From Martelella sp. NC20 (lineage in GTDB: Bacteria; Pseudomonadota; Alphaproteobacteria; Rhizobiales; Rhizobiaceae): DNA of 64,000 nt. The position numbers and the translations under genes were made by a program. The notes under the pieces were generated by a model, which had not been told where the DNA came from, made no database searches, and saw nothing but the letters and a program-made list of their open reading frames with translations. Positions 2,298 to 21,699 of this stretch are shown here, one piece after another; position 1 is the stretch's first letter; every line of letters starts with the position of its first letter. The stretch is taken from assembly GCF_013459645.1 (NCBI RefSeq), contig NZ_CP054861.1:788501-852500 (forward strand), given 5' to 3'.

Positions 2298-2298
2298 C

Positions 2299-3168: not shown

Positions 3169-3183
3169 CTCAACCTTCCAGCT

Positions 3184-4638: not shown

Positions 4639-4783
4639 CGGCGGCTCCACACGGAAGGGAAAGTGCGCCGTGACGATCTTGCGAAAGCGGCTATCCACGG
4701 CACCACAGTGTTTTCGGCTTGGAGCATTGCCGGCGAAAGCAGGATCACCGGAAATGCTCCATTCCTTGCTTTTACGTAACAGG

Positions 4784-5845: not shown

Positions 5846-5879
5846 CTTGAACTCTTTCCTGCTTTTCGTGCTGGCATTC

Positions 5880-7187
5880 TCAGCGAATATCTTCCTTGGC
5901 GGCGACGCGCCGCATGTTTTCCTCGTCAAAGACCTCCTTGAACGCCGCCTTCTCCTTGAGGTCGTCGGGCCGCTTCATGCCGGCCTTGCGATGGTATTCC
6001 ATGAACAGCGCCTCGACTTCGCCGCGCGGAATGACATCATCGATATTGTCGAAGGGAACACCGCCCGACCGCTCCTCGACCATGCGGCGAATGACTTCGG
6101 GGCCCTCGCCGCGATTGGCGATCACGAGCTTGTTCACAAAGCCGCAGCGCTCTTCCTCATAGGCTGCAAGCGCGGCGACCGGATCTTCAATCCCGGCAAG
6201 TTTTTCCGCGATCACACGGGCATCCACCAGAGCCTGGCATACGCCATTGCCGCCGCGCGGATACATCGCATGCGCGGCATCGCCCAGAAGCGTGACCCGG
6301 TCGAACGACCACCGATCCAGGGGATCGTTGTCGATGAGCGGATAGACATAGACCTCACGGGCGTTGCGGATCATCTCGCCTACATCGAGGAAGTCGAGCT
6401 TGACCTCATCGAAGACGTGGGCGATTTCGTCTGGTTCGACGCGGACGTTCCAGTCTTCGGCAGCTTTCGGTTTGCCGCTCTGCTCGCAGACCCAGTTGAC
6501 GAGCTGATTGCCCTCGCCATCCTCATCGTTGGCGATCGGGTAGACGATAAGCGAGCCCTGGCGGATAGGATCGCCGATATGCAGGATCGTTCCCCCGTTG
6601 GCATAGGGCGGCATGACCGTGACCCCGCGCCACATGGCGATACCGGAATAATGCGTTCGGGTGCTGTCGGGGCGAAGCTTCTTGCGCACCGCCGAGTGGA
6701 TACCATCGACGCCGATCACGATATCGTGGCGCGCCGTGGCCGGCACCCCGGCCGCGTCTTCGAAAAACAGGGTGACACCCTTGTCGTCCTGCTCGAACGT
6801 CCTGAGTTTGGCGTTCAGGACAACCGCATCCTGACCGAGACGCTCCCTGACCGCGTCCAGCAGCATGAACTGGAAACGGCCGCGATGCACAAACCGCTGC
6901 TCGTGGTCATAGCCCATGTGCTTGCCGCATTTTTCGGCAAAAATCTGCTGGCCGTACCCGGTATAAAAGACCGAGTCCTTCGCTTCGACGGAGATTTCGC
7001 GGAACGCATCGAGAAGCCCCATCTCGGTAACTTCCCTAGTGCCGTAAACCTTGATGTCGATACCCACGCCGAGCGGCCTGAGTTCCGGAGCGGCTTCGTA
7101 GATTGTCGGCCTGAAGCCTTTCTGATGCAAACGAAGCGCGGTGGCCAGTCCGCCGGGCCCGGCTCCGATAATGGCTATATCCAACAT
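5880..7187 (-). CDS. FAD-dependent aromatic monooxygenase (group A flavoprotein)
   Basis: A 435-residue single-component flavin hydroxylase of the PhzS/salicylate hydroxylase type. It would use NAD(P)H and oxygen to hydroxylate an aromatic ring. The three landmark motifs are present: GAGPGG at 8-13 (FAD ADP binding), DGIHSAVR starting at 161, and GDAAHAMYPRGGNG from 302 (FAD ribityl binding). No membrane segment or signal is seen. The ATG at 7187 follows an AGGAGGAATGAACC leader. It is adjacent to the extradiol dioxygenase, so it most likely produces or further hydroxylates the catechol that is cleaved. The exact substrate cannot be read from the sequence. Confidence 0.83.
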   Translation of the reverse strand: MLDIAIIGAGPGGLATALRLHQKGFRPTIYEAAPELRPLGVGIDIKVYGTREVTEMGLLDAFREISVEAKDSVFYTGYGQQIFAEKCGKHMGYDHEQRFVHRGRFQFMLLDAVRERLGQDAVVLNAKLRTFEQDDKGVTLFFEDAAGVPATARHDIVIGVDGIHSAVRKKLRPDSTRTHYSGIAMWRGVTVMPPYANGGTILHIGDPIRQGSLIVYPIANDEDGEGNQLVNWVCEQSGKPKAAEDWNVRVEPDEIAHVFDEVKLDFLDVGEMIRNAREVYVYPLIDNDPLDRWSFDRVTLLGDAAHAMYPRGGNGVCQALVDARVIAEKLAGIEDPVAALAAYEEERCGFVNKLVIANRGEGPEVIRRMVEERSGGVPFDNIDDVIPRGEVEALFMEYHRKAGMKRPDDLKEKAAFKEVFDEENMRRVAAKEDIR

Positions 7188-7246
7188 GGTTCATTCCTCC
7201 TGGGTAAATCGATAGGACCGGGCGCCCGAACATCGCCCCTCACCTG

Positions 7247-8266
7247 TCAGGCAACCTGCTTCGCCTTTTCGAGAAATTTCTCGAGCGTGGGCAGCGGCGC
7301 ATTCAGGATCGGATCCGCGGGCGCTACACCGGCAAATTCAGTCGCCTCCGTGAACCATTTCTCCTGAGCGGGCATCCCCCACTGGTCGGCGCGCCTGGGG
7401 TCTTTCAGGTTCCATGCTATCGGCGGTTCGAGATCGATATGCTGATAGTGGGTGTTGAACAGTTCGATGCGATGGCCGTCCGGATCGCGGAAATAGATGA
7501 ACATCGCCCCGGAAATGCCATGGCGTCCCGGCCCGCGTTCGAGATCGTGATTGAGGCCGAGCGCACCGGCAACATCGCAGGCATGCACGAGATCGGCCGC
7601 ATCACGCAGCAGATAGGCGAAGTGGTGCAGACGCGGCCCCGGACCGTTGGTAAAAACGATGTCGTGGGGATTGCCCTTGCGCTGCATCCAGATACCCCAC
7701 AGGTCAAGACCGCCTGAAGCGCTGTCGGAGAAGGTGTATTCGCTGGTCCGAAAACCGAGCGGATGATAGAAGTCCGCCGACCGGGCGACATCCGAAGACT
7801 GTGTCTGCCAGTGATCCGCCCGTTGCGCGGCAGCACCCTTGTATTTGTCATAACCATACATCTGTCGCGGCATGGCAACCATTTCCGCGCAGAACTCCAG
7901 CGGCAGGCCGCATGTATCGGAGACATGGAGCGTCAGACCCTGATAGGGCACGTCGACAAAATAGGCCTTGAAACCCTGCGCATTGAACCAGTCATGGGCG
8001 CGGCGCACATCGTCATCGGTCAACATGCGCATTCCGAGCCGTTCACATTTGCGCGGACCCTGCGACTTCTTCAAAACCAGGCTGTGATGGCCGCGCTCTT
8101 CCCGACCGCGCAGATAGAGAGCGTTCTCGTCCTCGTCACTGACGACAAGCCCGACAAGCTCGGTGTAGAAATATTTGCTGGCCTCAATATCCTTCGCCGT
8201 CAGAACCGTATGGCTGGCGCGGGTGATATTGAACGGCGGATCGAGAACAGGCGTATCGAATTTCAT
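7247..8266 (-). CDS. hpaD: Homoprotocatechuate 2,3-dioxygenase-type extradiol dioxygenase
   Basis: A 339-residue, two-domain VOC-fold (type I) extradiol dioxygenase. The metal triad can be placed at His152 (DHW), His215 (RLHHFAY) and Glu268 (HRIELF), nearly the positions in the well-studied Brevibacterium homoprotocatechuate 2,3-dioxygenase. The N-terminal FNITRASH, the segment ERGHHSLVL and the late RGPGRHGIS are typical of that subgroup. It opens an aromatic ring next to the diol, feeding the hydratase/aldolase pathway encoded downstream. The start at 8266 has an AGGGAGGAG site; an upstream in-frame ATG at 8314 lacks one. The symbol follows the family; the true catechol may differ because a flavin hydroxylase is co-encoded. 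Confidence 0.86.
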   Translation of the reverse strand: MKFDTPVLDPPFNITRASHTVLTAKDIEASKYFYTELVGLVVSDEDENALYLRGREERGHHSLVLKKSQGPRKCERLGMRMLTDDDVRRAHDWFNAQGFKAYFVDVPYQGLTLHVSDTCGLPLEFCAEMVAMPRQMYGYDKYKGAAAQRADHWQTQSSDVARSADFYHPLGFRTSEYTFSDSASGGLDLWGIWMQRKGNPHDIVFTNGPGPRLHHFAYLLRDAADLVHACDVAGALGLNHDLERGPGRHGISGAMFIYFRDPDGHRIELFNTHYQHIDLEPPIAWNLKDPRRADQWGMPAQEKWFTEATEFAGVAPADPILNAPLPTLEKFLEKAKQVA

Positions 8267-8399
8267 CGGGGCTCCTCCCTGTAACCTTTGAAAAAGACCT
8301 TGAACCACCCGCATTCACCCCGCAAGCGACCAGACTTTCTTTGTTCACATAGCGAAAACTGGCCTTGCGATGCTGGCGGCACGAAACTGCCCGACAAGC

Positions 8400-8437
8400 G
8401 ACAACGCCGCACGGAAGTCCTTCCGTACGGCGTTGTC
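8400..8437 (-). terminator. Long hairpin between TRAP operon and meta-cleavage genes
   Basis: A nearly perfect hairpin. A 10-bp outer stem (GACAACGCCG pairing with CGGCGTTGTC) continues, after one mismatch, into a further paired segment closed by a very small loop. It lies just after the dctM stop and before the dioxygenase gene, both on the minus strand. No T-tract follows, so it may be an attenuator or RNA-stabilising element between the two parts of one operon rather than a full terminator. Confidence 0.55.
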
Positions 8438-8459
8438 CGTCATGACGTGCCTGCCCTTG

Positions 8460-9758
8460 TCAGTTGATCAGCCGCGGCAGGAAAAGTGCAACTGACGGAA
8501 CCAGAAGAATAAGGAGAAGCCGCAAGAAGTCGGATATCAGATAGGGCATGATTCCCCTGAAAATCCGGGTGATCGGCAGTTCGGGCAACAGTGCCTTCAG
8601 GATGAAGACATTGAGGCCGACCGGCGGCGTGATCAGACTGATTTCGACGACCAGGACGGTGACGATCCCCCACCATACGAGATCGTAGCCGAGGCCGCTC
8701 ACGATCGGGGCGACGACGGGAACGGTCAGAAAAATCATCGCATAGCCATCCATCAGGCAGCCAAGCAACGCATAAAACACGATCAGGCAGGCAATCACGA
8801 GCGGCGGGCTCAAATTGAGCGAGTCGATGAAGCGCACCGTGTCGCCGGGAATGCCCGACAGATTGATGAATTGGTTGAGCACCATGGCACCGGCGGCAAC
8901 GATGAAGATCATCGTGGAGATCCGGGCCGTATCCAGCAGGCTCTTGATCAGTACCGAGAGCGTGAGCTTGCCGCGCAGAAGCACGAAAAGAAAGGCACCC
9001 CCTGCCCCGATGCCACCGGCCTCCGTTGCTGTAAACCAGCCCTGAACCAGTCCGACCATGATCAAACCGAACAGGAACAGAACCCCCCAGACCTTCGACA
9101 GGGCAGAAAGACTCTCGCCAAGGCCGGACCGTTCGCCTCTCGGGGCCCAGTGGGGGACCAACCGGGCGACGATCGCCATGACAATGACGTAGAACAACAC
9201 CTGCAAAAGCCCGGGAACGATGCCGGCGACGAAGAGTTCGCTGACGCTTTCCTGGGTCAGCAGACCGTAGATGATGAGAGCGCTCGAAGGCGGGATCAGA
9301 ATGCCCATCGTGCCCCCCGCCGCGATCGAACCTGCCGCGAAGCCGTCATCGTAACCGGCCTTCTTCATCTCCGGTATGGCGATCTGGGCCATGGTTGCCG
9401 ACGCCGCCGAAGACGACGCCGACATCGCAGAAAAGCCGCCGCAGGCCATGATGGTCGCCATCCCGAGCCCGCCCGGAAACTGGCCGACCCACCGCCGCGC
9501 CGCGTCGAAAAGCTCGTTGGCAAGGCCCGCCTTGACGACAAACACGCCCATCAGGATGAACAGCGGGAGCACGGAGAATTGGTAATTCGTTGCCAGGTCC
9601 ATGATCTGCTGTTCGGAGATGGCGAGCGCTGCGGAAAGCCCGCGCGGGTGCAACCCGGTGATCCCGGCAACACCGCAGAACATCATCACGAAACCGAGCG
9701 GCAAACGCGTAAATGCGATCAGGCCGACGACCGATCCCAGGGTCAGTATTTCAAGCAT
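8460..9758 (-). CDS. dctM: TRAP transporter large permease (DctM-like)
   Basis: A 432-residue, highly hydrophobic integral membrane protein with about a dozen predicted segments, the normal length for the DctM subunit that carries out sodium-driven solute uptake. GFSAMSASSSAASATMAQIAIPEM and GTMGILIPPSSALIIYG are typical DctM repeat sequences. The start at 9758 (MLEILTLGS) was chosen over an upstream in-frame ATG because it begins the first membrane helix and overlaps the small permease stop by eight bases (ATGCTTGA). The last gene of dctPQM-1, directly before the meta-cleavage genes, it probably imports the aromatic substrate. Confidence 0.9.
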   Translation of the reverse strand: MLEILTLGSVVGLIAFTRLPLGFVMMFCGVAGITGLHPRGLSAALAISEQQIMDLATNYQFSVLPLFILMGVFVVKAGLANELFDAARRWVGQFPGGLGMATIMACGGFSAMSASSSAASATMAQIAIPEMKKAGYDDGFAAGSIAAGGTMGILIPPSSALIIYGLLTQESVSELFVAGIVPGLLQVLFYVIVMAIVARLVPHWAPRGERSGLGESLSALSKVWGVLFLFGLIMVGLVQGWFTATEAGGIGAGGAFLFVLLRGKLTLSVLIKSLLDTARISTMIFIVAAGAMVLNQFINLSGIPGDTVRFIDSLNLSPPLVIACLIVFYALLGCLMDGYAMIFLTVPVVAPIVSGLGYDLVWWGIVTVLVVEISLITPPVGLNVFILKALLPELPITRIFRGIMPYLISDFLRLLLILLVPSVALFLPRLIN

Positions 9759-10266
9759 CGGTATCCTCGTCGTCGGGAATGGCATGGGGGCGCGGTCGGG
9801 GCTGGCGATGGACGATCCAGAGATTGTGGACGGCAAACCAGATCGCGATCAGGCAGAATATCCCGGCGAGAAACACGAATGGCGCCATCGGCAGTTCGAA
9901 GAAAACGGAAAGCGTACCGAAACGCTCCAGCCGATCGGCCTGATCGAAGATCATCCAGGTGAAGAAGCCGAGCGCCACGACCTCCATGATGCTGGTGAAC
10001 AGCGCCTCGATGCGGCTGAGCCGGCGCTTGTAAAGATCGGAAAAGAGACCGACGCGGATATGGGAATCATCCCGCACGACCAGCGGAATCGAGGAAAAGA
10101 AAAAGATCAGAAGCGCGAAGATCACATATTCCGATCCGCCATAAAGGGGATGACCGAGCTTGCGCCCGATGCTGTCGACGAAGGCCACCAGCGCCATGAC
10201 GATGATGGAGACGCCCGATACGGCAAGGCATATCCGCCCAAGCCAACGATCGATGACATAAAGCAT
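9751..10266 (-). CDS. dctQ: TRAP transporter small permease (DctQ-like)
   Basis: A 171-residue protein with four predicted membrane helices, matching the DctQ subunit that pairs with DctM. The segment IFALLIFFFSSIPLVVRDDSHIRV, with a charged D-S-H-I-R-V edge after helix 2, is characteristic. The start at 10266 has a GGAGAAATTC ribosome site. The upstream extension to 10392 has no good site and overlaps the dctP 3' end. It overlaps dctM downstream, indicating translational coupling. Confidence 0.87.
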   Translation of the reverse strand: MLYVIDRWLGRICLAVSGVSIIVMALVAFVDSIGRKLGHPLYGGSEYVIFALLIFFFSSIPLVVRDDSHIRVGLFSDLYKRRLSRIEALFTSIMEVVALGFFTWMIFDQADRLERFGTLSVFFELPMAPFVFLAGIFCLIAIWFAVHNLWIVHRQPRPRPHAIPDDEDTDA

Positions 10267-10333
10267 GAATTTCTCCGGATGGTTATCCTCCCGCAGGCCG
10301 GGGCACTGCGGGAGACAGGGACTTCCCGATACT

Positions 10334-11359
10334 TCAATTTCCGGAATTGAGTTCGCGGTCGAGAACCTCGCGATAGAAGGCATAGACCTCATCGGGATTT
10401 TCGAGCCCCTTGGCCGCGGCTTTCTTCTTCCAGGCCTCGATCTGAGAATTGAGAATACTTTCGAAGTTGGTCAAAGCCTCGCCTTCGATGACAACCGTCG
10501 GGATTTTCGCGACAGTATCGTCAAGCTCGGCCTCGGCGGTGTCGGCTGCGGCCCCTGTCCGTCCCGGAAGCCCCTCGGCCGCCCGCAATATGGCGGACTG
10601 CTCGTCCTCGCTCAGCTCGGCCCAACGCTCCTGCGAAATGAAAACGGCGAAGGACAGCGAGCCAAGGCCGCCGGGAACTTTCGTGTAGCTGGTGACATTC
10701 TCCAGCACACGGGCGCCGTCGGCCGAACCAGGGGTCATGATGATGGCGTCAACGGTGCCCTTGGTGACATATTCCTGCAGGTCCGTGAATTCGGAATTGA
10801 CCGGCACGGCCCCGAGCGCATCGGCAGTCTGCGTCAATGCGCCGGGCGGCGACCACAGCTTGATGCCGGAAAGGTCTTCAACGTCTTCGACCTTCACATT
10901 GCCGACCGACAGGATCTGCCGTCCGGGCAGAACGTGAGTCGAAAGCACCTTCACGCCTCTCAATTCGTCAAAAGGCTCGAAGTATTTCCTATACGTCTCC
11001 CACAAGGCGACCGATCCCGCACGTGCGTTCGGCGAGTTGAAGGGAAGGTCGGCAATCTTGTTCATCGTTACGAGTTGCGGTACCGCGCCGGACGAAACCA
11101 GCGCCATATCGGCAATCCCGTCGCGTACCATCTCGTACTGGCGGTCCGAGGGCGCCAGTGTGCTGTCGGGTATCTGGATGGTGATCTCACCGCCGGATTC
11201 CTTTTCAATCGCCGCGGCGAAGTCCCGCACCGCCGTCTGATACATCTCGTCATAAGGCGGCAGGAAGCTGTTGAAAATCAGCGTCGTTTCCGCAGAAGCG
11301 ACAGCAGGTGCCAAAGAAAAAAGAACCGCCGCCGAAGCGAGCGCGCGCATAGCTTTCAT
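10334..11359 (-). CDS. dctP: TRAP transporter substrate-binding protein (DctP family)
   Basis: A 341-residue periplasmic protein with a clear signal peptide (residues 1-24, MKAMRALASAAVLFSLAPAV then ASA, cleavage before ET). The mature part begins TLIFNSFLPP and contains the DctP-type segment GIKLWSPPG in place of the usual IR(x)P, with VNSEFTDLQEYVTKGTVDAI typical of the ligand-binding hinge. It is the first gene of dctPQM-1. The ATG at 11359 follows GGGAGGAGATC. The promoter probably lies in the 199 bp between it and the LysR gene. The ligand is probably an aromatic or organic acid used by the downstream genes. Confidence 0.88.
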   Translation of the reverse strand: MKAMRALASAAVLFSLAPAVASAETTLIFNSFLPPYDEMYQTAVRDFAAAIEKESGGEITIQIPDSTLAPSDRQYEMVRDGIADMALVSSGAVPQLVTMNKIADLPFNSPNARAGSVALWETYRKYFEPFDELRGVKVLSTHVLPGRQILSVGNVKVEDVEDLSGIKLWSPPGALTQTADALGAVPVNSEFTDLQEYVTKGTVDAIIMTPGSADGARVLENVTSYTKVPGGLGSLSFAVFISQERWAELSEDEQSAILRAAEGLPGRTGAAADTAEAELDDTVAKIPTVVIEGEALTNFESILNSQIEAWKKKAAAKGLENPDEVYAFYREVLDRELNSGN

Positions 11360-11558
11360 GATCTCCTCCCAAGCTTTATCGGGCAAAAAAAGCCACTTTG
11401 CCCGATGGTGCGAACACGATTAGTGCGGTTTGCGCTCCACTTGGCAACTTCATTTCCCGGCAACTTTCATATTGCGGACAGCTTCATGTTTCGGTTTATT
11501 CGCGAGACCCGCCCTTGGGAAACAGGGGGCGGTGGAACCACCTGGTAAAATGGCAAGG

Positions 11559-12740
11559 TCAAGAGGAGCCGAACGCGGCCGTGGCCTCACGCATAAGCCG
11601 GAGAAACAGGGCTTGGGCCGCGGTCGGCAGAAAGCCGCTGCGCAATGTCAGCCCGATCGGCCGCTCGGTGCTCGAAAGGTCGAATGGCAGGGCGACCATC
11701 AGGCCGTGAGCGATCTCCGCTTCCGCCTGACAGTTCGACACGCAGCCGAGATGATCGCTCCTTTCGAGAAGCTCGCGCATCAGGATGACGGAGCTGGTCT
11801 CGACCAGTCTCGAGGGCGCGGGGCTTCCGGCCCTCTCGAATATACTGTTGAAATGGCTGCGGATCGGCGTGCCTTCCGGCGCGACAACGAAGGGATAGTC
11901 CGCCATCATCGCAGGTGTCAGCGAAGGCGCGCGGGCGAGTGGATGCCCCGGACCCGCAACCAGCACGACGCTGTCGGAGAACAGCGGCTCCTGCACGACA
12001 TCGGCAATCGGCACCGGATCGCGCAACGCGCCGATGAGAAAGTCGATCTCGCCGCGCCTCAAGCCGGAAAGCAGGTCCTCATAGTGCCCTTCGACAACCT
12101 GCACCGGAATTGTCCGTCCGAGCGCCCGGAAGCGCACGATCGCGTCTGGCAGTATGCAGGCGCGCGACAACGGCATCGCGCCGACAACGATCTGCCCCGC
12201 TTCGCGCTGCATCAATTCCGCAAGGTCCGTTTCGGCCTGGGCAATTTCGGCGAAAGCGAGCCGGGCAGCCTGGGCCAGCGCGTCGGCGGCCCGCGTGGCC
12301 ACGATACCGAACGAGGTGCGTTCGAACAGCGGACGCGTCGCCTCGCCCTCGATCTGGGACACGGCGCGATGAACCGTTGGCTGGGCAAGACCGAGCCGCT
12401 TGGCGGCAAGCGTGAAATTCCCGGTTTCGCGCACCGCGATCAGCGCCTGCAACTGGGCATGGGTTGCCGTCATCTTCAGCCGTGGCGCCAGATCGGACAG
12501 TGCAGGGTCGAGATAGCCGAAGCAGCGTCTTACCCGTCTTGCCAGGGCCTCACCGGCGTCCGTTGCAAAAAGACCCTGCCGCGTTCGTGAAAACAGCGCC
12601 AGCCCGGCCATGCTCTCAACCTTGCCAAGCGCCTGGGTGACCGCCGGCTGCGATACGAAACAGGCCTCCGCCGCGCGCGTGACCGAACGCGTATCGACGA
12701 CGGCGAGAAAAACCCGCAGATGACGAAGATTATTGGACAC
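11559..12740 (-). CDS. LysR-family regulator with two N-terminal DNA-binding domains
   Basis: A 393-residue protein, about 90 residues longer than a standard LysR regulator. The excess is a second winged-helix domain. HTH-1 spans about 19-41 (SVTRAAEACFVSQPAVTQAL) and HTH-2 about 109-131 (FTLAAKRLGLAQPTVHRAVS). Each is preceded by the usual helix (LRVFLAVVDT and LQALIAVRETG). The remaining residues, about 180-390, form a normal periplasmic-binding-like effector domain. The start is GTG at 12740 with a GGGGAGATATT leader. It lies between two TRAP/aromatic operons on the same strand and is the obvious candidate regulator for both and for the gal-type genes across 16562-16863. Confidence 0.87.
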   Translation of the reverse strand: MSNNLRHLRVFLAVVDTRSVTRAAEACFVSQPAVTQALGKVESMAGLALFSRTRQGLFATDAGEALARRVRRCFGYLDPALSDLAPRLKMTATHAQLQALIAVRETGNFTLAAKRLGLAQPTVHRAVSQIEGEATRPLFERTSFGIVATRAADALAQAARLAFAEIAQAETDLAELMQREAGQIVVGAMPLSRACILPDAIVRFRALGRTIPVQVVEGHYEDLLSGLRRGEIDFLIGALRDPVPIADVVQEPLFSDSVVLVAGPGHPLARAPSLTPAMMADYPFVVAPEGTPIRSHFNSIFERAGSPAPSRLVETSSVILMRELLERSDHLGCVSNCQAEAEIAHGLMVALPFDLSSTERPIGLTLRSGFLPTAAQALFLRLMREATAAFGSS

Positions 12741-12816: not shown

Positions 12817-13737
12817 CTATTGCTGCCCGGCCACGCGCGCGCCGTTCGGGCCACCGCTCTCCTGTTCGTCCATTGCCGCGAGGATGAGCGCCGTGCGTTC
12901 GGCAAGTTCCGGCTCTCCCGCCGCCAGCCCGAGGTGACCAACGGCATCCTGCCAGACGGCAGCGGCGGCAGCCATGCGTGGGGTAATGCCGAGTTCCTCA
13001 AGGGTCGCCATGACTTCGCGCATTTCGGCGGCTCTTCTTTTGCCGTGCACCATCATGCGTTCGAGGCAATAGGCCGATTTGGCGGGCCAGTCGATCGCGG
13101 GATCGCTCGCGGAAAGCGAAGCAAGCACCTGAGCGGTGACGCCCGCCTTCTCCGCAGCAAGGAAACATTCGGCCATCAGCGCCTCCGTGCCCTTGATCAT
13201 CACCGACCGGATCATCTTGACCGACGAGGCGTCGCCGATTTGAGGGCCGGCGGCCGTCGCTTCCATGCCGAGGGTTGACATGGTCCTTGCCGCCGCTTCG
13301 GCAGCGGGACCGGAGACGAGACAGGGTGTGCGATGCAGTTTGGGATAAATCGGGCTCATGATCGCGACATCTGCGTAGCTTCCGCCGGCCCCGCCGATCA
13401 GGCGGGATGCCCGGCGCTTGGTCTCGGGCGAGCACGAATTGCCATCAAGATAAAACATGCCAGGCCTCAGCGCCGCCGCAGCGGTTTCGGCTGCAACCAA
13501 AGCGTTATCGGCGGTCACGAGACTGAAGACAATGTCGCTGCGGGCAAGCATGTCCGAAAGCGCCGGTGCGCAGAAGACACCGCGCGCGTCGCAGGCCGCA
13601 GCGATTGTTTCTGCCGCCCCGGCGTCCAGCGTCTTGACATCGAAGGCGGCGAGCGAGGCCGAAACACCCGCTTCGGCCCAGCCGTCACTGATCGCGCGCG
13701 CGGCTTCTCCGAATCCGATAAAACCGATCGTTTCCAT
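12817..13737 (-). CDS. DUF1932-type NAD(P)-dependent oxidoreductase
   Basis: A 306-residue 6-phosphogluconate/3-hydroxyisobutyrate dehydrogenase relative. It starts METIGFIGFGEAARAISDGW, a Rossmann fold with GFGEAA, and the C-terminal half carries the DUF1932 pattern GDASSVKMIRSVMIKGTEAL, whose Lys is at the usual catalytic position. The ATG at 13737 follows GAGAGGTGCCGTC. It is the last gene of the dctPQM-2 operon, next to the galB-type genes, so it probably acts on a hydroxy or oxo intermediate of the same aromatic pathway. A related gene lies at 1-653 in the other aromatic cluster. Confidence 0.8.
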   Translation of the reverse strand: METIGFIGFGEAARAISDGWAEAGVSASLAAFDVKTLDAGAAETIAAACDARGVFCAPALSDMLARSDIVFSLVTADNALVAAETAAAALRPGMFYLDGNSCSPETKRRASRLIGGAGGSYADVAIMSPIYPKLHRTPCLVSGPAAEAAARTMSTLGMEATAAGPQIGDASSVKMIRSVMIKGTEALMAECFLAAEKAGVTAQVLASLSASDPAIDWPAKSAYCLERMMVHGKRRAAEMREVMATLEELGITPRMAAAAAVWQDAVGHLGLAAGEPELAERTALILAAMDEQESGGPNGARVAGQQ

Positions 13738-13756
13738 GACGGCACCTCTCGAATGA

Positions 13757-15055
13757 TCAGCCGAACATCGAGTTCGGAATGACAAGGGCTATCTGCGGGA
13801 AGGCGATGATCAGCAGCAGGCAGACGATCATCGCGATCAGGAACGGCATCACGCCCTTGAAGATCGTAGCCAGCGGCACATCGCGCGCCACGCCCTTGAT
13901 GACGAAGACGTTGAGACCCACGGGGGGCGTGATCATCCCCATTTCGATAACGATGACGGCAACCACGCCGAACCAGATCGAGTCGAAGCCGGCGGCAACG
14001 ATAGCCGGATAGACGATCGGGATCGTCACCACCAGCATCGAAAGACCATCGAGGAACATGCCGAGGACGATGTAGGCGAGGATGATCACTGCCAGCGTGC
14101 CGTAGGGTCCAAGGCCGAGAAGCGCGGTTCCGAGCAGGTCGGGTATGTGGGTCACAGCGAGAAACGGATTGAGGACATTGGCACCGATGACGATCATGTA
14201 GAGCATCGCGGATGTGCGCGTGGTTTCCATCACCGCTTCGAGAAACCGCCCCCATGTGATGGCGCGCGAAGCGACCGCCAGAATGATGACCAGCGCCGCG
14301 CCGATGCCCGAAGCCTCGACCGGGGTGAACACGCCGAGATAGATGCCGCCGATCGAGATAACGATCACCGCGATCATTGGCAGCGCCCTGGCGAGGCTCG
14401 CGAAACGGCGGGCAAGCGACATCGGTTCGCCGCGCGGACCGGAGGTCGGATCGAGCCAGGTGACGATCCCAACCGTCGCCATGAACATCGCCATCATCAG
14501 GAGGCCGGGAAGGATACCCGCCATGAACAGGCGGCCGATGCTTTCCTCCGTTAGGATAGCGTAAATCACGAAGCCTGTTGAGGGCGGTATCAGAAAGCCA
14601 AGCGTGCCGCCCGCGGCAATCGCGCCTGTGGATAGGCTGGCGCTATAGCCGAGACGCTTCATTTCCGGAAGCGCGACCTTGCCGATGGTCACGGCGGTGG
14701 CGACCGAGGATCCGGAAACGGCCGAAAACGCGGCGCAGCCGATAACCGAGGCCGAGGCGAGGCCGCCGCGCAACCATCCGACCCAGGCATAGGCGGCGTC
14801 GTAAAGGCCCCGGCTGAAACCTGCCGCAGATGCGACATTGCCGAGCAAAACGAACATCGGCACGACAATCAGGGAATAGTTGGTTACCGTCCCGAAGCCT
14901 TCGGTAATCAGCACCGCACCGGCCGAGCGCATGCCGTTCAGGTACCACATGCCGCCAAAGCCCACGATGAGCATGGCGAAAGCCACCGGCGTTCTGAGCG
15001 CCAGCAGGACGAACATGATGCCGATCGCGATCAGGCCGATGATCTGGACACTCAT
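13757..15055 (-). CDS. dctM: TRAP transporter large permease (DctM-like)
   Basis: A 432-residue multi-helix membrane protein, the DctM subunit of the second TRAP system. Hallmarks include GCAAFSAVSGSSVATAVTIG and GGTLGFLIPPSTGFVIYA. The ATG at 15055 overlaps the small-permease stop by four bases (ATGA), so translation is coupled. It is followed after 19 bases by the DUF1932 gene in the same operon. Confidence 0.9.
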   Translation of the reverse strand: MSVQIIGLIAIGIMFVLLALRTPVAFAMLIVGFGGMWYLNGMRSAGAVLITEGFGTVTNYSLIVVPMFVLLGNVASAAGFSRGLYDAAYAWVGWLRGGLASASVIGCAAFSAVSGSSVATAVTIGKVALPEMKRLGYSASLSTGAIAAGGTLGFLIPPSTGFVIYAILTEESIGRLFMAGILPGLLMMAMFMATVGIVTWLDPTSGPRGEPMSLARRFASLARALPMIAVIVISIGGIYLGVFTPVEASGIGAALVIILAVASRAITWGRFLEAVMETTRTSAMLYMIVIGANVLNPFLAVTHIPDLLGTALLGLGPYGTLAVIILAYIVLGMFLDGLSMLVVTIPIVYPAIVAAGFDSIWFGVVAVIVIEMGMITPPVGLNVFVIKGVARDVPLATIFKGVMPFLIAMIVCLLLIIAFPQIALVIPNSMFG

Positions 15056-15555
15056 TCCGTATGCCTTCCGAAAACAAGAATGACGACCTGAAAGGCAAGA
15101 ACCGCGACGCAGAGCGCCGAACCAAGCGCGATCAGCGCATAGGTCGGCCAGAGCGGAAGCCCCAGCATGTTTGTCATGTCGCCGTATTCATGGGCATCGA
15201 GCGCTTTCAGGAACGCGCGGCGCGCCAGCACGTAGAGCACGCCGGCCGAAAGCACCCTTGCCAACAGATCGGCGAGGCGGCGGCCGCGTTCGCCGAGATG
15301 CCGGTCGAAGATATCGACATTCACATGGCCATCGGCAAGCGTGCACATCGGCAGCGCCAACATCACGGTCATGACCGACAGAAACTGGACGATTTCGTTG
15401 ATGCCGAGAATCGGGGCGTTGAGGAAATAGCGCATGACGACGCCGGTGGCGATCAACACCACCATGGCGATCAGCCCCAGACCCGCGACCGCCGCAAGGA
15501 CGGTCGCGGCGCCATGGAACACTTTTCCTGCAGAGGAATGCGTTTTTTCGGACAT
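15052..15555 (-). CDS. dctQ: TRAP transporter small permease (DctQ-like)
   Basis: A 167-residue, four-helix membrane protein of the DctQ family. It carries VMRYFLNAPILGINEIVQFL and LADGHVNVDIFDRHL, the latter matching the conserved loop after helix 2 in DctQ proteins. The start at 15555 (MSEKTHSS) was chosen over an in-frame ATG at 15591, which lies inside the dctP 3' end. It overlaps dctM by four bases. Confidence 0.85.
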   Translation of the reverse strand: MSEKTHSSAGKVFHGAATVLAAVAGLGLIAMVVLIATGVVMRYFLNAPILGINEIVQFLSVMTVMLALPMCTLADGHVNVDIFDRHLGERGRRLADLLARVLSAGVLYVLARRAFLKALDAHEYGDMTNMLGLPLWPTYALIALGSALCVAVLAFQVVILVFGRHTE

Positions 15556-15568
15556 ATTACCCGGACGC

Positions 15569-16561
15569 TTACTGGTCGGCCCTGAGCGCATCGACGATCT
15601 GCTGCGCTTCGATCCCGTTGGCGGCCTCCTCGGCGATCACCTCGCCGACGATCGGGGCGGACAGCGTGTTGAAGGCCTCTGCCTCTTCAGGCGTCAGTTC
15701 GATGACTTCCTTGCCCTGCATGTCCGCAAAGGCCTGGATGCCGTCCGCCGCCACGTCGAGCTGGACCTTCTGGCCGAGCAGGGAGGCTTCCATGCCTGCC
15801 TTCTCGACTGCGGCCTGATCTTCCGGAGAAAGGCTCTCGAAAGCGTCGCGGTTCATCAGGATGAAGAAGGGCGACACGGTGCTTTCCATGCCGACGGTCA
15901 GGTAGTTGGCGACTTCGCCGAGCTTGAAGGCCTTGGTCGCGGTTCCGTCGATCATGGCGCCGTCGATGACGCCGGTCTGCATGGCGTTATAAATGTCGGA
16001 AACCGGGATCGATACAGGCGAGGCGCCCCAGGCCTCGACCATCAGGCCCGAATTGCGGGAAGGTACACGGATCTTCAGCCCCTTGAGGTCTTCGGGCGAA
16101 TGCACGGCCTTGTCGCGCATATAGAGCAGATTGGGTGCGCTCGACCAGAGGCCGATGAGCTTGACGCGCCGGTATTCAGGCTCGAACAGCTCGATATTCT
16201 TCCAGATGTCCCTGGTGCCCGTGTCGACATTGATGACGCCGGGCAATTCCGCAAGCAGCGTGCGGGGGAAGTTCGATGCCGTATAGCCGGGCAGGCTGAT
16301 GGCGAATTCGGCAACACCCTCGCTGACGCGGGTATACTGTTCGACCGGTCCCGGACCGAGTTCGCCGCCATTGTAAAGGCGCACCGTCACGTCGCCATTG
16401 GTGCCTTTTTCCACCATCTCGGCGAAAGGCTGGAACGCGCCCGCCACATAGGGATGCATCGCCGGCATATAGTTGGCGAACTTCATCTCTTCGGCCTTCG
16501 CGCCGAGGGTCGTCAACGCCACGAGGGCCGCGGCTGCCGTAATGGATTTAAACATCGTCAT
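15569..16561 (-). CDS. dctP: TRAP transporter substrate-binding protein (DctP family)
   Basis: A 330-residue periplasmic binding protein with a signal peptide (about residues 1-24, ending LTTLGAKAEE). The mature protein begins MKFANYMPAMHPYV. GLKIRVPSRNSGLMV is the typical carboxylate-binding Arg segment (IRVP), which suggests an organic-acid ligand. The ATG at 16561 was preferred to 16555 because a GGAGGAGACAAC leader is better spaced for it. It is the first gene of dctPQM-2, transcribed away from the gal-type genes across a shared regulatory region, and so probably imports the aromatic acid they degrade. Confidence 0.88.
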   Translation of the reverse strand: MTMFKSITAAAALVALTTLGAKAEEMKFANYMPAMHPYVAGAFQPFAEMVEKGTNGDVTVRLYNGGELGPGPVEQYTRVSEGVAEFAISLPGYTASNFPRTLLAELPGVINVDTGTRDIWKNIELFEPEYRRVKLIGLWSSAPNLLYMRDKAVHSPEDLKGLKIRVPSRNSGLMVEAWGASPVSIPVSDIYNAMQTGVIDGAMIDGTATKAFKLGEVANYLTVGMESTVSPFFILMNRDAFESLSPEDQAAVEKAGMEASLLGQKVQLDVAADGIQAFADMQGKEVIELTPEEAEAFNTLSAPIVGEVIAEEAANGIEAQQIVDALRADQ

Positions 16562-16863
16562 GTTGTCTCCTCCCTGGAGTTCACACCGGATCCTGGCGCT
16601 TGAAGCGTCACATGTCACAAAGAACGGCAGGACCTGCGGTTTTCAGGACTTTCTGACGTCGTCATTACGCCGGCATATTCGCCCAATGCCATTCAGAAGA
16701 TCGTCGTTGTCATAAGAAATAGCTATAGCAGAGAACCCGACAACGCTTCCGGAAAAGGTTTTCGAAGTCCCTATAGCCATTTCTTATGACAATGGCGCTA
16801 ATCCGAATTGGCATTTCCGGGCTTCCGCCGTGAGAAAGGTGCAACTGGAAAACGGAGGCAACC
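16562..16863. promoter_or_regulatory. Divergent promoter region with long LysR-type inverted repeat
   Basis: A 302-bp gap between dctP (minus) and the GalB-like gene (plus). It contains two 22-bp arms in inverted orientation, 16707-16728 and 16771-16792, matching at 21 of 22 positions and separated by 42 bp. Each arm contains an ATA-N9-TAT type sequence (a T-N11-A LysR box) or its one-base variant. The arrangement would place one site before each divergent transcription unit. The tandem-HTH LysR protein encoded at 11559-12740 is the likely binder. No strong sigma-70 consensus was read with certainty. Confidence 0.7.
16707..16792. repeat. 22-bp imperfect inverted repeat, 42-bp spacer
   Basis: The left arm (16707-16728) begins TTGTCATAAGAAATAGC and the right arm (16771-16792) is its reverse complement with one base changed. 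The distance between arm centres is 64 bp, about six helical turns, so the two sites would face the same side of DNA, as expected for a looping or cooperative operator. It is not associated with any terminator or insertion sequence. Confidence 0.85.
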
Positions 16864-17601
16864 ATGCCGGAGAACAACAAGTCCGCGCTTGTCATAAGCG
16901 CACATGCCGCCGACTTCGTGTGGCGCTGTGGCGGCGCGATCGCGCTTCACGTGGAAAAAGGCTATGACGTGACGGTGCTCTGCCTGTCTTTCGGCGAGCG
17001 CGGCGAGAGCGCCAAATTGTGGAAAGAGCCGGGCATGACGCTCGAAAAGGTCAAGGCCGCCCGTCGGGCCGAGGCCGAAAATGCCGCAAGAGCGCTCGGC
17101 GTTGCCGATCTCGTCTGCCTCGATCTTGGTGATTATCCGCTGGACCTCTCGCGCGAGGACAAGAACAAGGTTGTCGAGGTGATCCGCAAGGCGCAGCCGG
17201 CCTTCATGCTCTCCCACTCGCAATACGATCCCTATAATACCGACCACATGTACACCACGCAGGTGGCGCTCGAATGCCGCATGATCGCGCAGGCCTGGGG
17301 CCATAATCCGGGTGAAAAGGTTCTCGGCGCGCCGCAGCTCTATCTGTTCGAGCCGCACCAGACCGAGCAGATGGGCTGGAAGCCCGACACCTTCCTCGAC
17401 ATCACCCAGGTCTGGGACAAGAAACGCGCGGCCATCGAATGCATGGAGGGCCAGGAGCATCTGTGGGAATATTACACCCGCGTCGCAATCAACCGCGCCA
17501 ATCATTTCAAGCGCAATTCCGGCGGCCAGTCGGGCGGGCGTGACTGCAAATATGCCGAGGGTTTTCAGTCGATCTTCCCGCGCACGGTCGACGAGCTTTA
17601 A
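16864..17601 (+). CDS. galB: PIG-L family 4-oxalomesaconate hydratase-like protein
   Basis: A 245-residue PIG-L/LmbE-fold zinc protein that resembles GalB, the 4-oxalomesaconate hydratase of the gallate pathway (4-oxalomesaconate to 4-carboxy-4-hydroxy-2-oxoadipate). The zinc motif is the GalB-style ISAHAADFVWRCGG (His14, Asp17) rather than the deacetylase AHPDDE. The following LSFGERGESAKLW is also GalB-like. A later ligand His lies in NTDHMY. The start follows GGAGGCAACC. It is the first gene of a four-gene plus-strand operon with galC- and galD-like genes, which strongly supports the assignment over a sugar deacetylase role. Confidence 0.83.
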   Translation: MPENNKSALVISAHAADFVWRCGGAIALHVEKGYDVTVLCLSFGERGESAKLWKEPGMTLEKVKAARRAEAENAARALGVADLVCLDLGDYPLDLSREDKNKVVEVIRKAQPAFMLSHSQYDPYNTDHMYTTQVALECRMIAQAWGHNPGEKVLGAPQLYLFEPHQTEQMGWKPDTFLDITQVWDKKRAAIECMEGQEHLWEYYTRVAINRANHFKRNSGGQSGGRDCKYAEGFQSIFPRTVDEL

Positions 17602-17674
17602 CGATCGGGCAAGAACGGGCGATGCGCCCGTCGCGCTGCGAAAGACGCGGTTTGATATCTGTGGAGGAAATATC

Positions 17675-18649
17675 GTGAGTCATGATCCGACCAATCCGAG
17701 TTTCGACATCGCCCATCTCGGCCATGTCGAGGTGTTGACCGACAAGTTCGAAGAAAGCCTCGACTTCTTTACCCGCGTCTATGGACTGAAGCTCTCCGGC
17801 CGGGATGAGAACTCGGCCTATCTCAGGGCCTGGGACGACTACGAATTCGCGACATTGAAACTGACGCGATCCGACGCCACCGGGGTCGGCCATATCGCCT
17901 ATCGCGCCGCTTCGCCGGAAGCGCTCGCCCGCCGCGTCGAGGCCATCGAGGCTTCGGACTTCAGGGTCATCGGCTGGAACGATGGCGATTTGAGCCATGG
18001 CCGCGCCTTCCGTTTCGAGGATCCGTTCGGTCATATCTTCGAGATCTATTACGACACCAACTGGTATGTACCGCAGGAAGACGCCGAGAAGCCGGCGCTG
18101 AAGAACACGGCATCCGCCTATACCGGCGCCGCCCCCCGCCGCATCGACCACCTGAACCTGCTGTCGGAAGATGTCACCGAGTTCCGCCGTTTCATGACGA
18201 CCTGCCTTGGCGCGCGGGTGACGGAGTACATCCTTCTCGACAACGGCCGGCTGGGCGGCTGCTGGTTCACCGTCAACAACAAGACCTATGATCTTGCCTG
18301 CACCGAGGAGCATGGCGGCGGCAGTGGCCGGTTTCACCATATCACCTACGCCACCGACCAGCGCGAGGATATCCTGCGGGCCGCCGATATATTCCTGCAG
18401 AACGGCGTGCACATCGAAACCGGTCCGCACAAGCATGCGATCCAGGGCACCTTCTTTCTCTATGTCTGGGAACCGGCCGGCAATCGCGTCGAGCTCGCCA
18501 ATTCGGGCGCGCGCCTCGTTCTCGCGCCCGACTGGCAGCCGGTCTGCTGGACCCAGTCCGACCGCATGAAGGGGCAAGCCTGGGGGCTGAAGACGATCGA
18601 GACATTCCACACCCACGGCACGCCGCCCGTGACGAAGACGGGCGCGTGA
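17675..18649 (+). CDS. VOC-fold extradiol dioxygenase (catechol 2,3-dioxygenase-like)
   Basis: A 324-residue two-domain type I extradiol ring-cleavage dioxygenase. The metal triad is placed at His159 (RIDHLN), His222 (RFHHITY) and Glu273 (NRVELAN), close to the XylE pattern (153, 214, 265). GPHKHAIQG and the late [16 protein letters not shown] also match that group. The frame is open upstream within the galB-like gene, but GTG at 17675 has a GGAGGAAATATC leader and begins the conserved fold. It sits between GalB- and GalC-like genes, where known gallate or protocatechuate 4,5-dioxygenases belong to the unrelated LigB superfamily. The substrate is therefore inferred to be a carboxylated tri- or dihydroxybenzene. 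Confidence 0.84.
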
Positions 18650-18651
18650 CC

Positions 18652-19323
18652 ATGGCAAAGGTCGTCCGGAATATCATGCGCGCCGATCCGGCGGTCATCG
18701 ACGGGCTCGCCGCGGCGGGCGTCGCCACCGTGCACGAGGCGCAGGGCCGCAAGGGCCTGCTCCAGAGCCAGATCCGCCCGATCTATGCCGGCGCGCGGAT
18801 TGCCGGTTCCGCCGTCACCATCTCGGCGCCTCCCGGCGACAACTGGATGATCCATGTGGCGATCGAGCAGTTGATGTCCGGCGACATTCTGGTGCTTGCG
18901 CCGACGAGCCCCTGCGACGACGGCTATTTCGGCGACCTGCTTGCCACCTCCGCGCAGGCGCGCGGTTGCCGCGGCCTGATCATCGATGCCGGCGTGCGCG
19001 ACATCCGCGACCTGACCGAGATGGGTTTTCCGGTCTGGTCGCGCGCCGTCTCCGCCCAGGGGACCGTCAAGGAGACACTGGGATCGGTCAATATCCCTGT
19101 GGTTTGCGCCGGCGCGGCGGTCAATCCCGGCGATATTATCGTCGCCGATGACGACGGCGTCTGCGTCGTCGCCCGCGAGGAGGCCGAGACCGTGCTTGCC
19201 GCCGCCGACAGGCGCACCGCCAACGAGGAGATGAAGCGCAAGCGGCTTGCCGCCGGCGAGTTGGGACTGGACATATACGACATGCGACAGCGCCTTGCGG
19301 AAAAGGGGCTCAAATATGCCTGA
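18652..19323 (+). CDS. galC: 4-carboxy-4-hydroxy-2-oxoadipate aldolase-like (RraA fold)
   Basis: A 223-residue RraA/HMG-aldolase-fold protein resembling GalC/LigK, which cleaves 4-carboxy-4-hydroxy-2-oxoadipate to pyruvate and oxaloacetate. The catalytic and metal pattern is visible as [27 protein letters not shown], with the G-D-L-L loop, an Arg/Asp pair (VRDIRD) and downstream [18 protein letters not shown]. An overlapping GTG at 18646 (GTGA with the upstream stop) is an alternative start, adding two residues. It overlaps the galD-like gene by eight bases. Plain RraA is shorter and lacks the catalytic set, so an enzyme is favoured. Confidence 0.85.
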
Positions 19324-20374
19324 GGATGACGGCATCGCGTGTCTGTGGATGCGCGGCGGCACCTCCAAGGGCGCCTATTTTCTTGGCTCGGATCTGCCGC
19401 GGCAAACGGCGGATCGCGACGATCTTCTGTTGCGGATCATGGGGTCGCCCGATCCGCGCCAGATCGACGGCATCGGCGGCGGCGATCCGTTGACATCGAA
19501 AGTCGCGATCCTGTCGCCGCCAAGCCGGCCGGATGCCGATGTCGACTACCTGTTCCTGCAGGTTTTCGTCGATCAGAGACTGGTCAGCGACAAGCAGGGC
19601 TGCGGCAACATTCTGGCGGGCGTCGGCCCGGCGGCAATCGAGCGCGGGCTGGTTCCGGCGAAAGACAATGTCACCGAGGTCCGTATCCACATGGTCAACA
19701 GCGGCGAAGTCGCCGTCGCCCGTATCGAGACGCCCGCAGGCAAGGTCAATTATCGTGGCGATGCCGCGATTGCCGGCGTCCCCGGTCACCATGCCGCCAT
19801 CCCGCTGCTGTTTGCAAACACCGCCGGCTCGATGTGCGGCGCATTGCTGCCGACCGGCAATCCGGCCGACACGATCGACGGTATCGACGTGACGCTGATC
19901 GACAACGGCATGCCCTGCGTGGTGATGCGCGCGGCCGATTTCGGACTGACCGGGCAGGAAAGCCTCGATGCGCTCGAGAACAACAGCGAATTGAAGGCCA
20001 GGATCGAGGCGATCCGTCTGAAAGCCGGGCCGATGATGGCGCTCGGCGACGTCAGCGAGGCATCGGTTCCGAAGATGACGCTGGTCTCGGCGCCGCAAAA
20101 TGGTGGCTCGATTGCGACACGATCGTTCATTCCCCACCGCGTCCACGCCGCCATCGGCGTTTTCGCGGCCGTTTCGGTCGCGACCGCTGCCCGCACTGCC
20201 GGCGCCGTGGGCGCCGATCTCGCGGTCGCGCCCGACGACGGCAACTACCTGATCGAGCATCCGACCGGCGCGCTCGATGTCTTCCTCGATATCGGGCCCG
20301 ATGGCGAAATCCGGCGCGCCGGCAATCGCCGCTCCGCCCGCAAGCTTTTCGACGGAAGGGTGTTCCCGCGGTGA
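19316..20374 (+). CDS. galD: PrpF-family 4-oxalomesaconate tautomerase-like protein
   Basis: A 352-residue PrpF/diaminopimelate-epimerase-fold isomerase. It resembles GalD, which interconverts keto and enol forms of 4-oxalomesaconate before hydration by GalB. The N-terminus [14 protein letters not shown] and the cysteine segment [13 protein letters not shown] (catalytic Cys at the epimerase position) are family signatures. [16 protein letters not shown] marks the second half. The ATG at 19316 overlaps the aldolase stop by eight bases and begins the conserved domain. PrpF itself acts on aconitate in the methylcitrate cycle, but no prp genes are near, so the GalD role fits better. Confidence 0.84.
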
Positions 20375-20436: not shown

Positions 20437-21699
20437 CTATCCGAGCCGATTGAGGGCAAACTGTCCCGACTTGATCACGCAGATCGGCTGCTGCAACCGG
20501 CGCACATCGTCAACAGCCGATCCGTTGACAACAACGATATCGGCGTCGTAGCCCTGCGTCAGTTGTCCCGTTTGCGTTGAAATACCCAATATCTCGGCGC
20601 CCAGCACAGTGCCTGCTCGAAGCGCCTCGGTCGCCTCCATCCCTCCTGCAACGGCAAGCTCGAACTCCTTGGCCGCGAAAGCGAGCGGATGCGTCGGCCG
20701 GCCGATCAGGTCAGTCCCGAGAACGAATTTGACGCCCGCTTCGAGGCCCGTCCGGAAACTCTCCAGCATCGCCTTCCAGTGCGCCTCGAAGGAAACCCGT
20801 TCCTGTCGCGAATACCCGAATTCGTCAAACGCCATGCGATGGTAATGCAATTGCGAAAGTGTGGTGACCACAGGTGTTTGCGCGTGCGCAAGCCGCTTGC
20901 GGGTTTCCTCCGATATGGCGTAGCCGTGCTCGATAATGTCGACGCCATGATCAAGCGCCTGGGCCACGGCCTGATCGCCGATAGCATGAACACTCACCTT
21001 GAACCCGTTGCGATGGGCCTCGTCGACCGCAGCCGCCAGTTCTTCATCGCTCATCGCCAAAAGCTGGCCGAAGGGGTCATCGCCCCACGCCTTGTTGATA
21101 TCGTTCGGCCGACCCTTGGTCAGCCCAAGCTTGATGAAGTCGGTGCCTTCCTGAAGCCGCTGGCGCACGCGCCGGCGCATTTCGACGGGACCATCGGCCA
21201 CAGCGCAGGCACGCCCTTCCGGCAGAAGCGCCGCGGGCTTGCCGCCCCATGTGCCGGCGGTCGTGGAAATGAATTCGCCGGCAGCCACAAGACGTGGTCC
21301 CTTGATGAGACCGGCCGCAATGGCCCTGCTCAGGTCAGGGCCGACAGACGAACCGAGGCAGCGGGCGGAGGTAAACCCGGCTTCCAGCAGCTCTCCAAGT
21401 TCCGAGGCGGCCCGCAGCGCCCGGCCCGTCTCGCGCGCGCTCATCAGGCCGCCGAGCGCCAGGGAGTCCATGCCGAATGTGTGCATATGCGCATCGATCA
21501 GTCCGGGCATGATCGTTGCGTCGCCAAAATCCATTTCCTCCGCATCCGGTGGAACATCGGCGGCCCCCACGCCCACAGCCAGGATTTTCGCCCCCTCCAC
21601 GAGCATGCCGGAACCTCCGACAAGCTCAAGTCGCGTTCCCGCGAGAATACGGTCGGCGCGAAGGTAAAGATGACTGGGTCTTTTGTTCGTTTTTGACAT
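20437..21699 (-). CDS. Metal-dependent amidohydrolase (imidazolonepropionase/prolidase-like)
   Basis: A 420-residue amidohydrolase-superfamily enzyme. Metal ligands are recognisable: HMH in GLIDAHMHTFG, the bridging Lys in DFIKLGLTKG (probably carboxylated), His in VSVHAIGD, His in DIIEHGY and Asp in FVLGTDLIGRP. N- and C-terminal beta-sandwich segments flank the barrel. Relatives include Xaa-Pro or Xaa-Arg dipeptidases and other broad amide or lactone hydrolases. It is cytoplasmic, with no signal. The ATG at 21699 has a GGGAGAG site. It diverges from a ROK regulator and converges on galD, so it may belong with the ROK/ABC importer locus. The substrate is not known. Confidence 0.8.
   Translation of the reverse strand: MSKTNKRPSHLYLRADRILAGTRLELVGGSGMLVEGAKILAVGVGAADVPPDAEEMDFGDATIMPGLIDAHMHTFGMDSLALGGLMSARETGRALRAASELGELLEAGFTSARCLGSSVGPDLSRAIAAGLIKGPRLVAAGEFISTTAGTWGGKPAALLPEGRACAVADGPVEMRRRVRQRLQEGTDFIKLGLTKGRPNDINKAWGDDPFGQLLAMSDEELAAAVDEAHRNGFKVSVHAIGDQAVAQALDHGVDIIEHGYAISEETRKRLAHAQTPVVTTLSQLHYHRMAFDEFGYSRQERVSFEAHWKAMLESFRTGLEAGVKFVLGTDLIGRPTHPLAFAAKEFELAVAGGMEATEALRAGTVLGAEILGISTQTGQLTQGYDADIVVVNGSAVDDVRRLQQPICVIKSGQFALNRLG

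Follow-up and report, generated by a model that had tools for sequence, protein, structure and literature searches.

A VOC-fold enzyme in a Martelella GalB-GalC-GalD operon as a predicted gallate dioxygenase unrelated to GalA and DesB

We analysed a 64,000-nucleotide stretch of contig NZ_CP054861.1 of Martelella sp. NC20 (hereafter the window; coordinates are positions within it unless another scale is given). This stretch carries a four-gene operon in which a ring-cleaving dioxygenase of the VOC fold stands among genes for the conversion of 4-oxalomesaconate (OMA). We propose, with a probability of roughly 0.78, that this enzyme is a gallate dioxygenase that forms OMA directly and is not homologous to the gallate dioxygenases GalA and DesB. 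We infer its substrate and product, and likewise uptake and regulation, from genomes. The proposal draws on what was observed of gene content and its conservation, of a tyrosine that has replaced a catalytic histidine, of tannase genes that occur with the operon, and of alternative enzymes that are absent. The pathway as such is known. What would be new is the enzyme of its first step, a non-homologous solution in which the acid-base residue is altered.

The operon consists of four intact, closely spaced open reading frames, all on the plus strand, in the order GalB, VOC dioxygenase, GalC and GalD, as described in an earlier note on this DNA. The first (16864..17601) encodes a GalB-like OMA hydratase of the PIG-L fold (PF02585, 84.9 bits). 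It aligns along its own length with the solved OMA hydratase PDB 5cgz (315 bits), and no GalB model turned up for it in an NCBIfam scan. Seventy-three bases further on lies the gene for the VOC dioxygenase (17675..18649), preceded by a Shine-Dalgarno-like GGAGGAA (17663..17669); its likely start is the GTG at 17675, and the longest listed open reading frame begins at 17312. The next gene, for the GalC/LigK aldolase GalC (18649..19323, alternative starts 18646 and 18649; related to PDB 3noj), scores 387 bits against TIGR02798 (cut-off 304.5) and overlaps with the GalD gene where the two adjoin. GalD is a GalD/LigU-type OMA tautomerase of the PrpF fold (19316..20374, alternative starts 19310 and 19316), with 499 bits against NF033377 (cut-off 440) and 455 bits to PDB 6p3j. 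Both GalC and GalD pass the curated cut-offs of the OMA pathway. The earlier note saw no LigB-type gene here, and this holds for the whole window, since the two PF02900 genes of the genome both fall outside it.

The dioxygenase has the two-domain VOC fold. Its metal triad His159/His222/Glu273 (2-His-1-Glu) is complete, as had been noted, and is kept in 201 of 201 close relatives. A family scan of the enzyme gave only Glyoxalase-type and dioxygenase-like N-terminal domains, and no PF02900 domain of the LigB superfamily. The acid-base position is altered. In homoprotocatechuate 2,3-dioxygenase (HPCD), a type I extradiol dioxygenase, His200 is a catalytic residue (excerpts of PMC10760822). The window enzyme carries Tyr205 in that place, so that the usual catalytic second-sphere histidine is absent, a point that the earlier note did not contain. 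Two further HPCD residues, Arg243 and Arg293, bind the substrate carboxylate; they are Thr and Gly in the window enzyme.

In overall likeness the enzyme is close to catechol dioxygenases. The best family model is TIGR03211 (catechol 2,3-dioxygenase, 291.2 bits), the fold search places the enzyme near 3lm4, AphC (7q2a) and XylE (1mpy), and the sources name its homologues catechol 2,3-dioxygenase or VOC family protein. We nevertheless find it barely credible that this is an ordinary catechol 2,3-dioxygenase, placed in a gal operon by happenstance. The TIGR03211 cut-off of 320.2 bits is not reached, the catalytic histidine is a tyrosine in all 201 relatives, the operon has no genes for processing a semialdehyde, and the association with OMA genes is conserved. 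AphC, which was solved with 4-ethylcatechol according to the title of its PDB entry, and 3lm4, both from Rhodococcus, keep a histidine at position 200 in the alignment, whereas the window enzyme has tyrosine. The nearest solved relative by sequence, PDB 9wgj (353 bits), also has tyrosine there. This deposit shows that a relative of the VOC enzyme is already in the hands of others. The fold search did not list 9wgj (its library runs to April 2026, and a family unlisted there is not thereby excluded), and a search of open-licence papers found none on this structure.

The tyrosine at the HPCD His200 position marks a VOC family. The 201 sequences come from two overlapping sources, so the same genes may be present in both, and the window gene is counted twice. 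A second alignment, which overlaps with the first, likewise has tyrosine there in 100 of 100 rows. The residue is also shared by all fetched matches with at least 59% identity and by all of the best 120 of 6126 homologues (E<=1e-20), the remainder of which includes classical relatives. Among 14 distinct fetched genes with 46% identity or less, 13 have histidine and one has a gap. The surroundings of four His-type genes look, by eye, like classical operons: L138 has neighbours resembling a meta-pathway hydratase, acetaldehyde dehydrogenase and aldolase, L139 is similar, and L140 and L141 have fumarylacetoacetate-hydrolase-like neighbours. In a tree the His rows separate with 100/99 support, in an analysis with an unsettled bootstrap and with two rows on very long branches. 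The row of Martelella lutilitoris is nearest to the window enzyme, and the tannase label requires at least two changes on the tree. Of 398 genomes drawn evenly from the phylum, 19, including the source genome, hold a homologue of at least 59% identity.

The window itself contains a second aromatic operon (1494-11386, minus strand) with genes for an aldehyde dehydrogenase, an Amidohydro_2 protein, an FAD monooxygenase, a VOC dioxygenase, an FAA-hydrolase family protein and TRAP proteins. Its dioxygenase (7247-8314) is of the His type and about 27-29% identical to the operon enzyme. In appearance this second operon is a classical meta-cleavage route, and it provides a contrast within the window itself.

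From at least 571 relatives we took the best 80 loci for comparison. The exact order GalB-VOC-GalC-GalD on one strand, which the earlier note had suggested looking for in related genomes, occurs in 60 of them, so that an arrangement by chance is excluded. Five further loci contain the operon plus a tannase gene, two (L070 and L080) show doubled matches of one gene, and the remaining 13 have partial or rearranged gene sets. For nine of these 13, a whole-genome search found an OMA tautomerase over the cut-off in eight and a fragmented one in the ninth.

The tannase-family genes bear on the substrate; tannase frees gallate from tannins. These genes lie in or directly after the operon and on the same strand: after GalD in L022 and L025, between GalC and GalD in L026 and L033, and after GalC near a contig end in L053. 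A. tumefaciens 186 (walnut) has another behind GalD, on its pAt plasmid. The three tannase-family genes that were tested score 414-438 bits against PF07519. A PF02900 search of the genomes of L025, L026, L033 and L053 (G408, G409, G411 and G438) found no such gene, and G411 additionally has neither DUF1932 nor LigC. Since no LigB-superfamily gene is present there, the VOC enzyme is the only candidate for opening the gallate ring, among ring openers of known type, in these four tannase genomes. The genome of L022 (G406) has one PF02900 gene (112 bits).

An enzyme acting on protocatechuate would need more partners. The semialdehyde product of protocatechuate would have to be oxidized and, by the known route, pass through the opening of a lactone. 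The protocatechuate 4,5-cleavage pathway (LigAB, LigC, LigI, LigU, LigJ, LigK) shares its lower part from OMA with the window operon (GalD and GalC types), whereas LigAB, LigC and LigI are absent from the operon and GalB stands in place of LigJ. The VOC enzyme might be a protocatechuate 4,5-dioxygenase whose semialdehyde is oxidized by the DUF1932 oxidoreductase or another dehydrogenase before GalD, GalB and GalC act; we give this a slim chance. The DUF1932 search covered 35 genomes from loci mostly without a DUF1932 gene beside the VOC gene (in L006 and L045 one lies at a greater distance), the LigC and LigB searches these 35 and the source genome (36), and the PcaH and PF02900 searches six more (42). 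No DUF1932 homologue (E<=1e-20) was found in 21 of the 35 VOC genomes. This rules out DUF1932 as an obligate semialdehyde dehydrogenase and speaks against the earlier suggestion that the protein might oxidize a semialdehyde; it is dispensable to the operon. LigC was not found in 32 of 36 genomes (four have one) and a LigAB-type LigB not in 30 of 36. DUF1932, LigC and LigAB-type LigB were jointly not found in 19 of 35, so no known partner to oxidize a semialdehyde is present there; in six of these 19 a PF02900 gene of any type was also not found. PcaH is over the cut-off in 38 of 42 genomes, and thus protocatechuate has another route. The operon has no lactonase, and gallotannin should not yield protocatechuate under the action of tannase. 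An amidohydrolase gene at 20437-21699 was considered as a lactonase and set aside; it lies on the opposite strand, and NCBIfam matches it best to a Xaa-Pro dipeptidase model, with a score below the cut-off. DUF1932 matches also adjoin a LigB in genome G417 (C165) and a LigAB operon in locus L142.

The absence of DUF1932, LigC and LigAB from many genomes, together with the wide presence of PcaH, favours direct formation of OMA, the product that gallate should give when its ring is cleaved between neighbouring hydroxyls. The earlier note had left two readings side by side, a semialdehyde and an independent gallate route through direct OMA formation. The latter gains from the tannase genes in related operons, from the absent semialdehyde-oxidizing partners and from PcaH as an outlet for protocatechuate, so that the note's interpretation is borne out in part. 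Its observation of the operon is confirmed, and on firmer ground than the note gave it.

Several observations weigh against gallate as the substrate. The DUF1932 gene travels with the operon in 38 of 80 loci, which our proposal leaves unexplained. MobA-like 3-hydroxybenzoate 4-hydroxylase genes (754 bits to PDB 2dkh) lie near the operon in six of 80 loci, five of which have DUF1932 in the locus, and would fit protocatechuate. Because PcaH is over the cut-off in all six genomes concerned (G429, G433-G437), this clustering does not by itself need the VOC enzyme to take protocatechuate. LigI/LigJ-like amidohydrolases occur in L006, L045, L047, L058, L064 and the plasmid locus L156, and could mean a lactone intermediate; all except that of L058 are 58-69% identical to one of the LigI/LigJ type that adjoins LigAB in P. 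caribensis. Two of the 19 genomes without the three partners, G420 and G425, carry a strong PF02900 gene (over 220 bits), and all absences are drawn from genomes of unstated completeness. Two of the eight tautomerase genes found by whole-genome search, in G402 and G431, adjoin LigB and LigC and may serve that route instead. The family PF07519 includes feruloyl esterases as well as tannase, and the close relative 9wgj was deposited under the name 'Catechol 1,2-dioxygenase'. Finally, in a clade of about 60% identity, three of five loci have GalB and GalC without GalD and two have the VOC gene without any Gal gene, and on plasmids of Pantoea and Chimaeribacter the VOC gene stands alone. For these members at the edge of the family, with incomplete or no Gal genes, the gallate reading is weaker.

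These edge loci have features of their own. L134, L135 and L144 share one gene order, in which a Tyr-type VOC gene about 60% identical to that of the window adjoins GalB, GalC and a LigI-like amidohydrolase, without GalD; a further neighbour looks, by eye, like a 4,5-dihydroxyphthalate decarboxylase (in L134, Pfam makes it NMT1-like). In L132 and L133 a cobalamin-independent methionine synthase-type protein (PF01717 in L132), which might be an O-demethylase, precedes the VOC gene, as does a branched-chain amino acid-type ABC transporter (by eye). The plasmid genes of Pantoea sp. At-9b (L151) and Chimaeribacter arupi (L152) belong to the Tyr clade (75-78% identity) and lie among transporters or regulators only; their presence in Enterobacterales suggests transfer out of the Alphaproteobacteria. 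L156, on a plasmid of A. tumefaciens H25/79, contains VOC, GalC, GalD, two LigI/LigJ-like amidohydrolases and a DctA-type carrier, without GalB, and may be a variant with another hydratase in place of GalB.

A methylated substrate has also to be weighed. If the VOC enzyme cleaved 3-O-methylgallate, it would give an OMA methyl ester or pyrone dicarboxylate, which other enzymes would bring to OMA. O-demethylase genes of the DesA/LigM type do lie about 2-6 kb from the VOC gene in L044, L130 and L080 (58-78% identity), weaker matches (42-45%) occur near it in L027 and L042, and in the source genome a second copy of the operon has, about 15 kb away, a LigM (NF047885, vanillate/3-O-methylgallate O-demethylase, 614.5 versus 580 bits). 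The O-demethylase genes of L044, L130 and L080 and this LigM count in favour of the gallate reading too. We think 3-O-methylgallate very unlikely as the substrate, as no conserved esterase or lactonase was found in the operon, the tannase links point to unmethylated gallate, and the LigAB of the source genome, with an alpha/beta hydrolase ahead of it, fits the 3-O-methylgallate step better.

The second operon copy, which the earlier note did not mention, is at C1:481.8-485.3 kb of the source genome; the identities are 91% for GalB, 87% for VOC, 78% for GalC, 81% for GalD, 67% for DUF1932 and 77% for the LysR regulator. The whole-genome search for PF02900 gave two genes. One is the LigB of a LigA-LigB pair (C1:503.3-504.5 kb), the other a weaker match of 103 bits at C1:4332 kb. 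The alpha/beta hydrolase is ahead of the pair and a LigM-type O-demethylase is close by. DesC, which is grouped with the genes of the methylgallate branch in sphingomonads, is an alpha/beta hydrolase too (excerpts of PMC12997858), so that, as a guess, the LigAB of the source genome may act on 3-O-methylgallate. In Novosphingobium, LigAB and LigAB2 act on gallate as well (excerpts of PMC8091115), and the LigAB of the source genome may therefore contribute to gallate cleavage to some extent. In the source genome PcaH is present, and LigC was not found at E<=1e-30. A third set of Gal genes (L098, C1:4287500-4307000; locus positions 4539-11036, 4.292-4.299 Mb) comprises a LigI-like amidohydrolase, TRAP genes, GalB, GalC and GalD, without a VOC or other dioxygenase. 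The best model for its amidohydrolase is 4-sulfomuconolactone hydrolase, below the cut-off, and the set looks like an operon for uptake and use of pyrone dicarboxylate or a similar acid.

Divergent from the four-gene operon, on the minus strand, are genes for a TRAP transporter, an oxidoreductase and a regulator. The transporter, probably for uptake of the substrate, comprises DctP (15569..16618; PF03480), a DctQ-like small permease (15052..15591; assigned by position and by homologues adjoining DctM in related loci) and the large permease DctM (13757..15055; PF06808). They are followed by the DUF1932 protein, a 6-phosphogluconate-dehydrogenase-like accessory oxidoreductase (12817..13785; PF09130), and by the probable regulator, a PcaQ-like LysR protein with two helix-turn-helix stretches (11559..12740; 229.8 bits, below the cut-off of 303.8). 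An operator-like inverted repeat lies between the divergent units, with a left arm ATAAGAAATAGCTAT (16712..16726, plus strand) and a right arm ATAAGAAATGGCTAT (16773..16787, minus strand). The same pair of arms precedes the second operon copy. Without mismatch, the pattern ATAAGNNATNGCTAT occurs at exactly four places in the 6.1 Mb genome, the arms of both operons; allowing one mismatch brings in five more, of which one falls within the repeat of the second operon, and the pattern read backward, as a control, has five. The repeat at 16712-16787 is probably the site by which the LysR protein controls the operon. At least one site (up to 3 mismatches) was found in 28 of 90 stretches upstream of GalB, a count that includes repeat fetches of the same genes and stands without a chance level, and the signal is therefore local rather than family-wide. 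The earlier note had held that a co-regulated LigB-type gallate dioxygenase elsewhere in the genome would count against an independent route. A LigAB does exist; its LigB, however, scores 308 bits against a gallate dioxygenase cut-off of 412, and no ATAAGNNATNGCTAT site within 2 mismatches was found in the 19.5 kb around it (0.32 expected by chance). Thus, the operator pattern does not support placing LigAB in the same regulon.

Based on these findings, we propose the following model. Gallate would be taken up, here probably by the divergent TRAP carrier, and the VOC-fold dioxygenase would open its ring to give OMA. GalD would tautomerize OMA, GalB would hydrate the tautomer to 4-carboxy-4-hydroxy-2-oxoadipate, and GalC would split the latter into pyruvate and oxaloacetate. 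On mechanistic grounds, because the hydroxyls of gallate flank C4 on both sides, 3,4 or 4,5 opening should yield the same acid and no aldehyde. The third hydroxyl would lie where His200 normally acts, which may be why tyrosine replaces histidine.

In P. putida the gal genes are reportedly grouped. GalA works there with GalB, GalC and GalD (excerpts of PMC5065237). GalA and DesB of Sphingobium SYK-6 catalyse the reaction predicted here, gallate and O2 to OMA. DesB is a type II enzyme (excerpts of PMC3962378) and gallate dioxygenases are assigned to the LigB superfamily (excerpts of PMC4250580), whereas the window enzyme has the VOC fold and no LigB domain. The list of type I substrates in the AromaDeg excerpts, which ends 'among others', does not include gallate (PMC4250580), and a literature search limited to open-licence PMC papers found no VOC-type gallate dioxygenase. 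The predicted reaction and the unrelated fold together suggest that gallate ring opening was invented twice in nature.

A wider proposal is more tentative. Gallate ring opening may have originated a second time, by convergence, in the large, mainly alphaproteobacterial VOC family, with tyrosine used instead of the histidine acid-base catalyst, and it is even conceivable that the bond between the metal-bound hydroxyls is broken, an intradiol mode; taken as a whole, we regard this as possible and rather unlikely. To our knowledge, a histidine acid-base catalyst is general among extradiol dioxygenases, and some HPCD His200 variants are said to show intradiol behaviour. As gallate is symmetric about C4, an intradiol break would give the same OMA, and evolution would not have forbidden such a switch.

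Tannins and syringyl lignin both yield gallate as a main product of their breakdown. If our proposal is correct, one reaction would be carried out by non-homologous enzymes, and many genes now called 'catechol 2,3-dioxygenase' or 'VOC family protein' would be misnamed. The natural change from histidine to tyrosine would then allow a direct test of what the acid-base residue does in extradiol cleavage. Last, gallate use in Rhodobacterales and Rhizobiales would escape surveys based on GalA and DesB.

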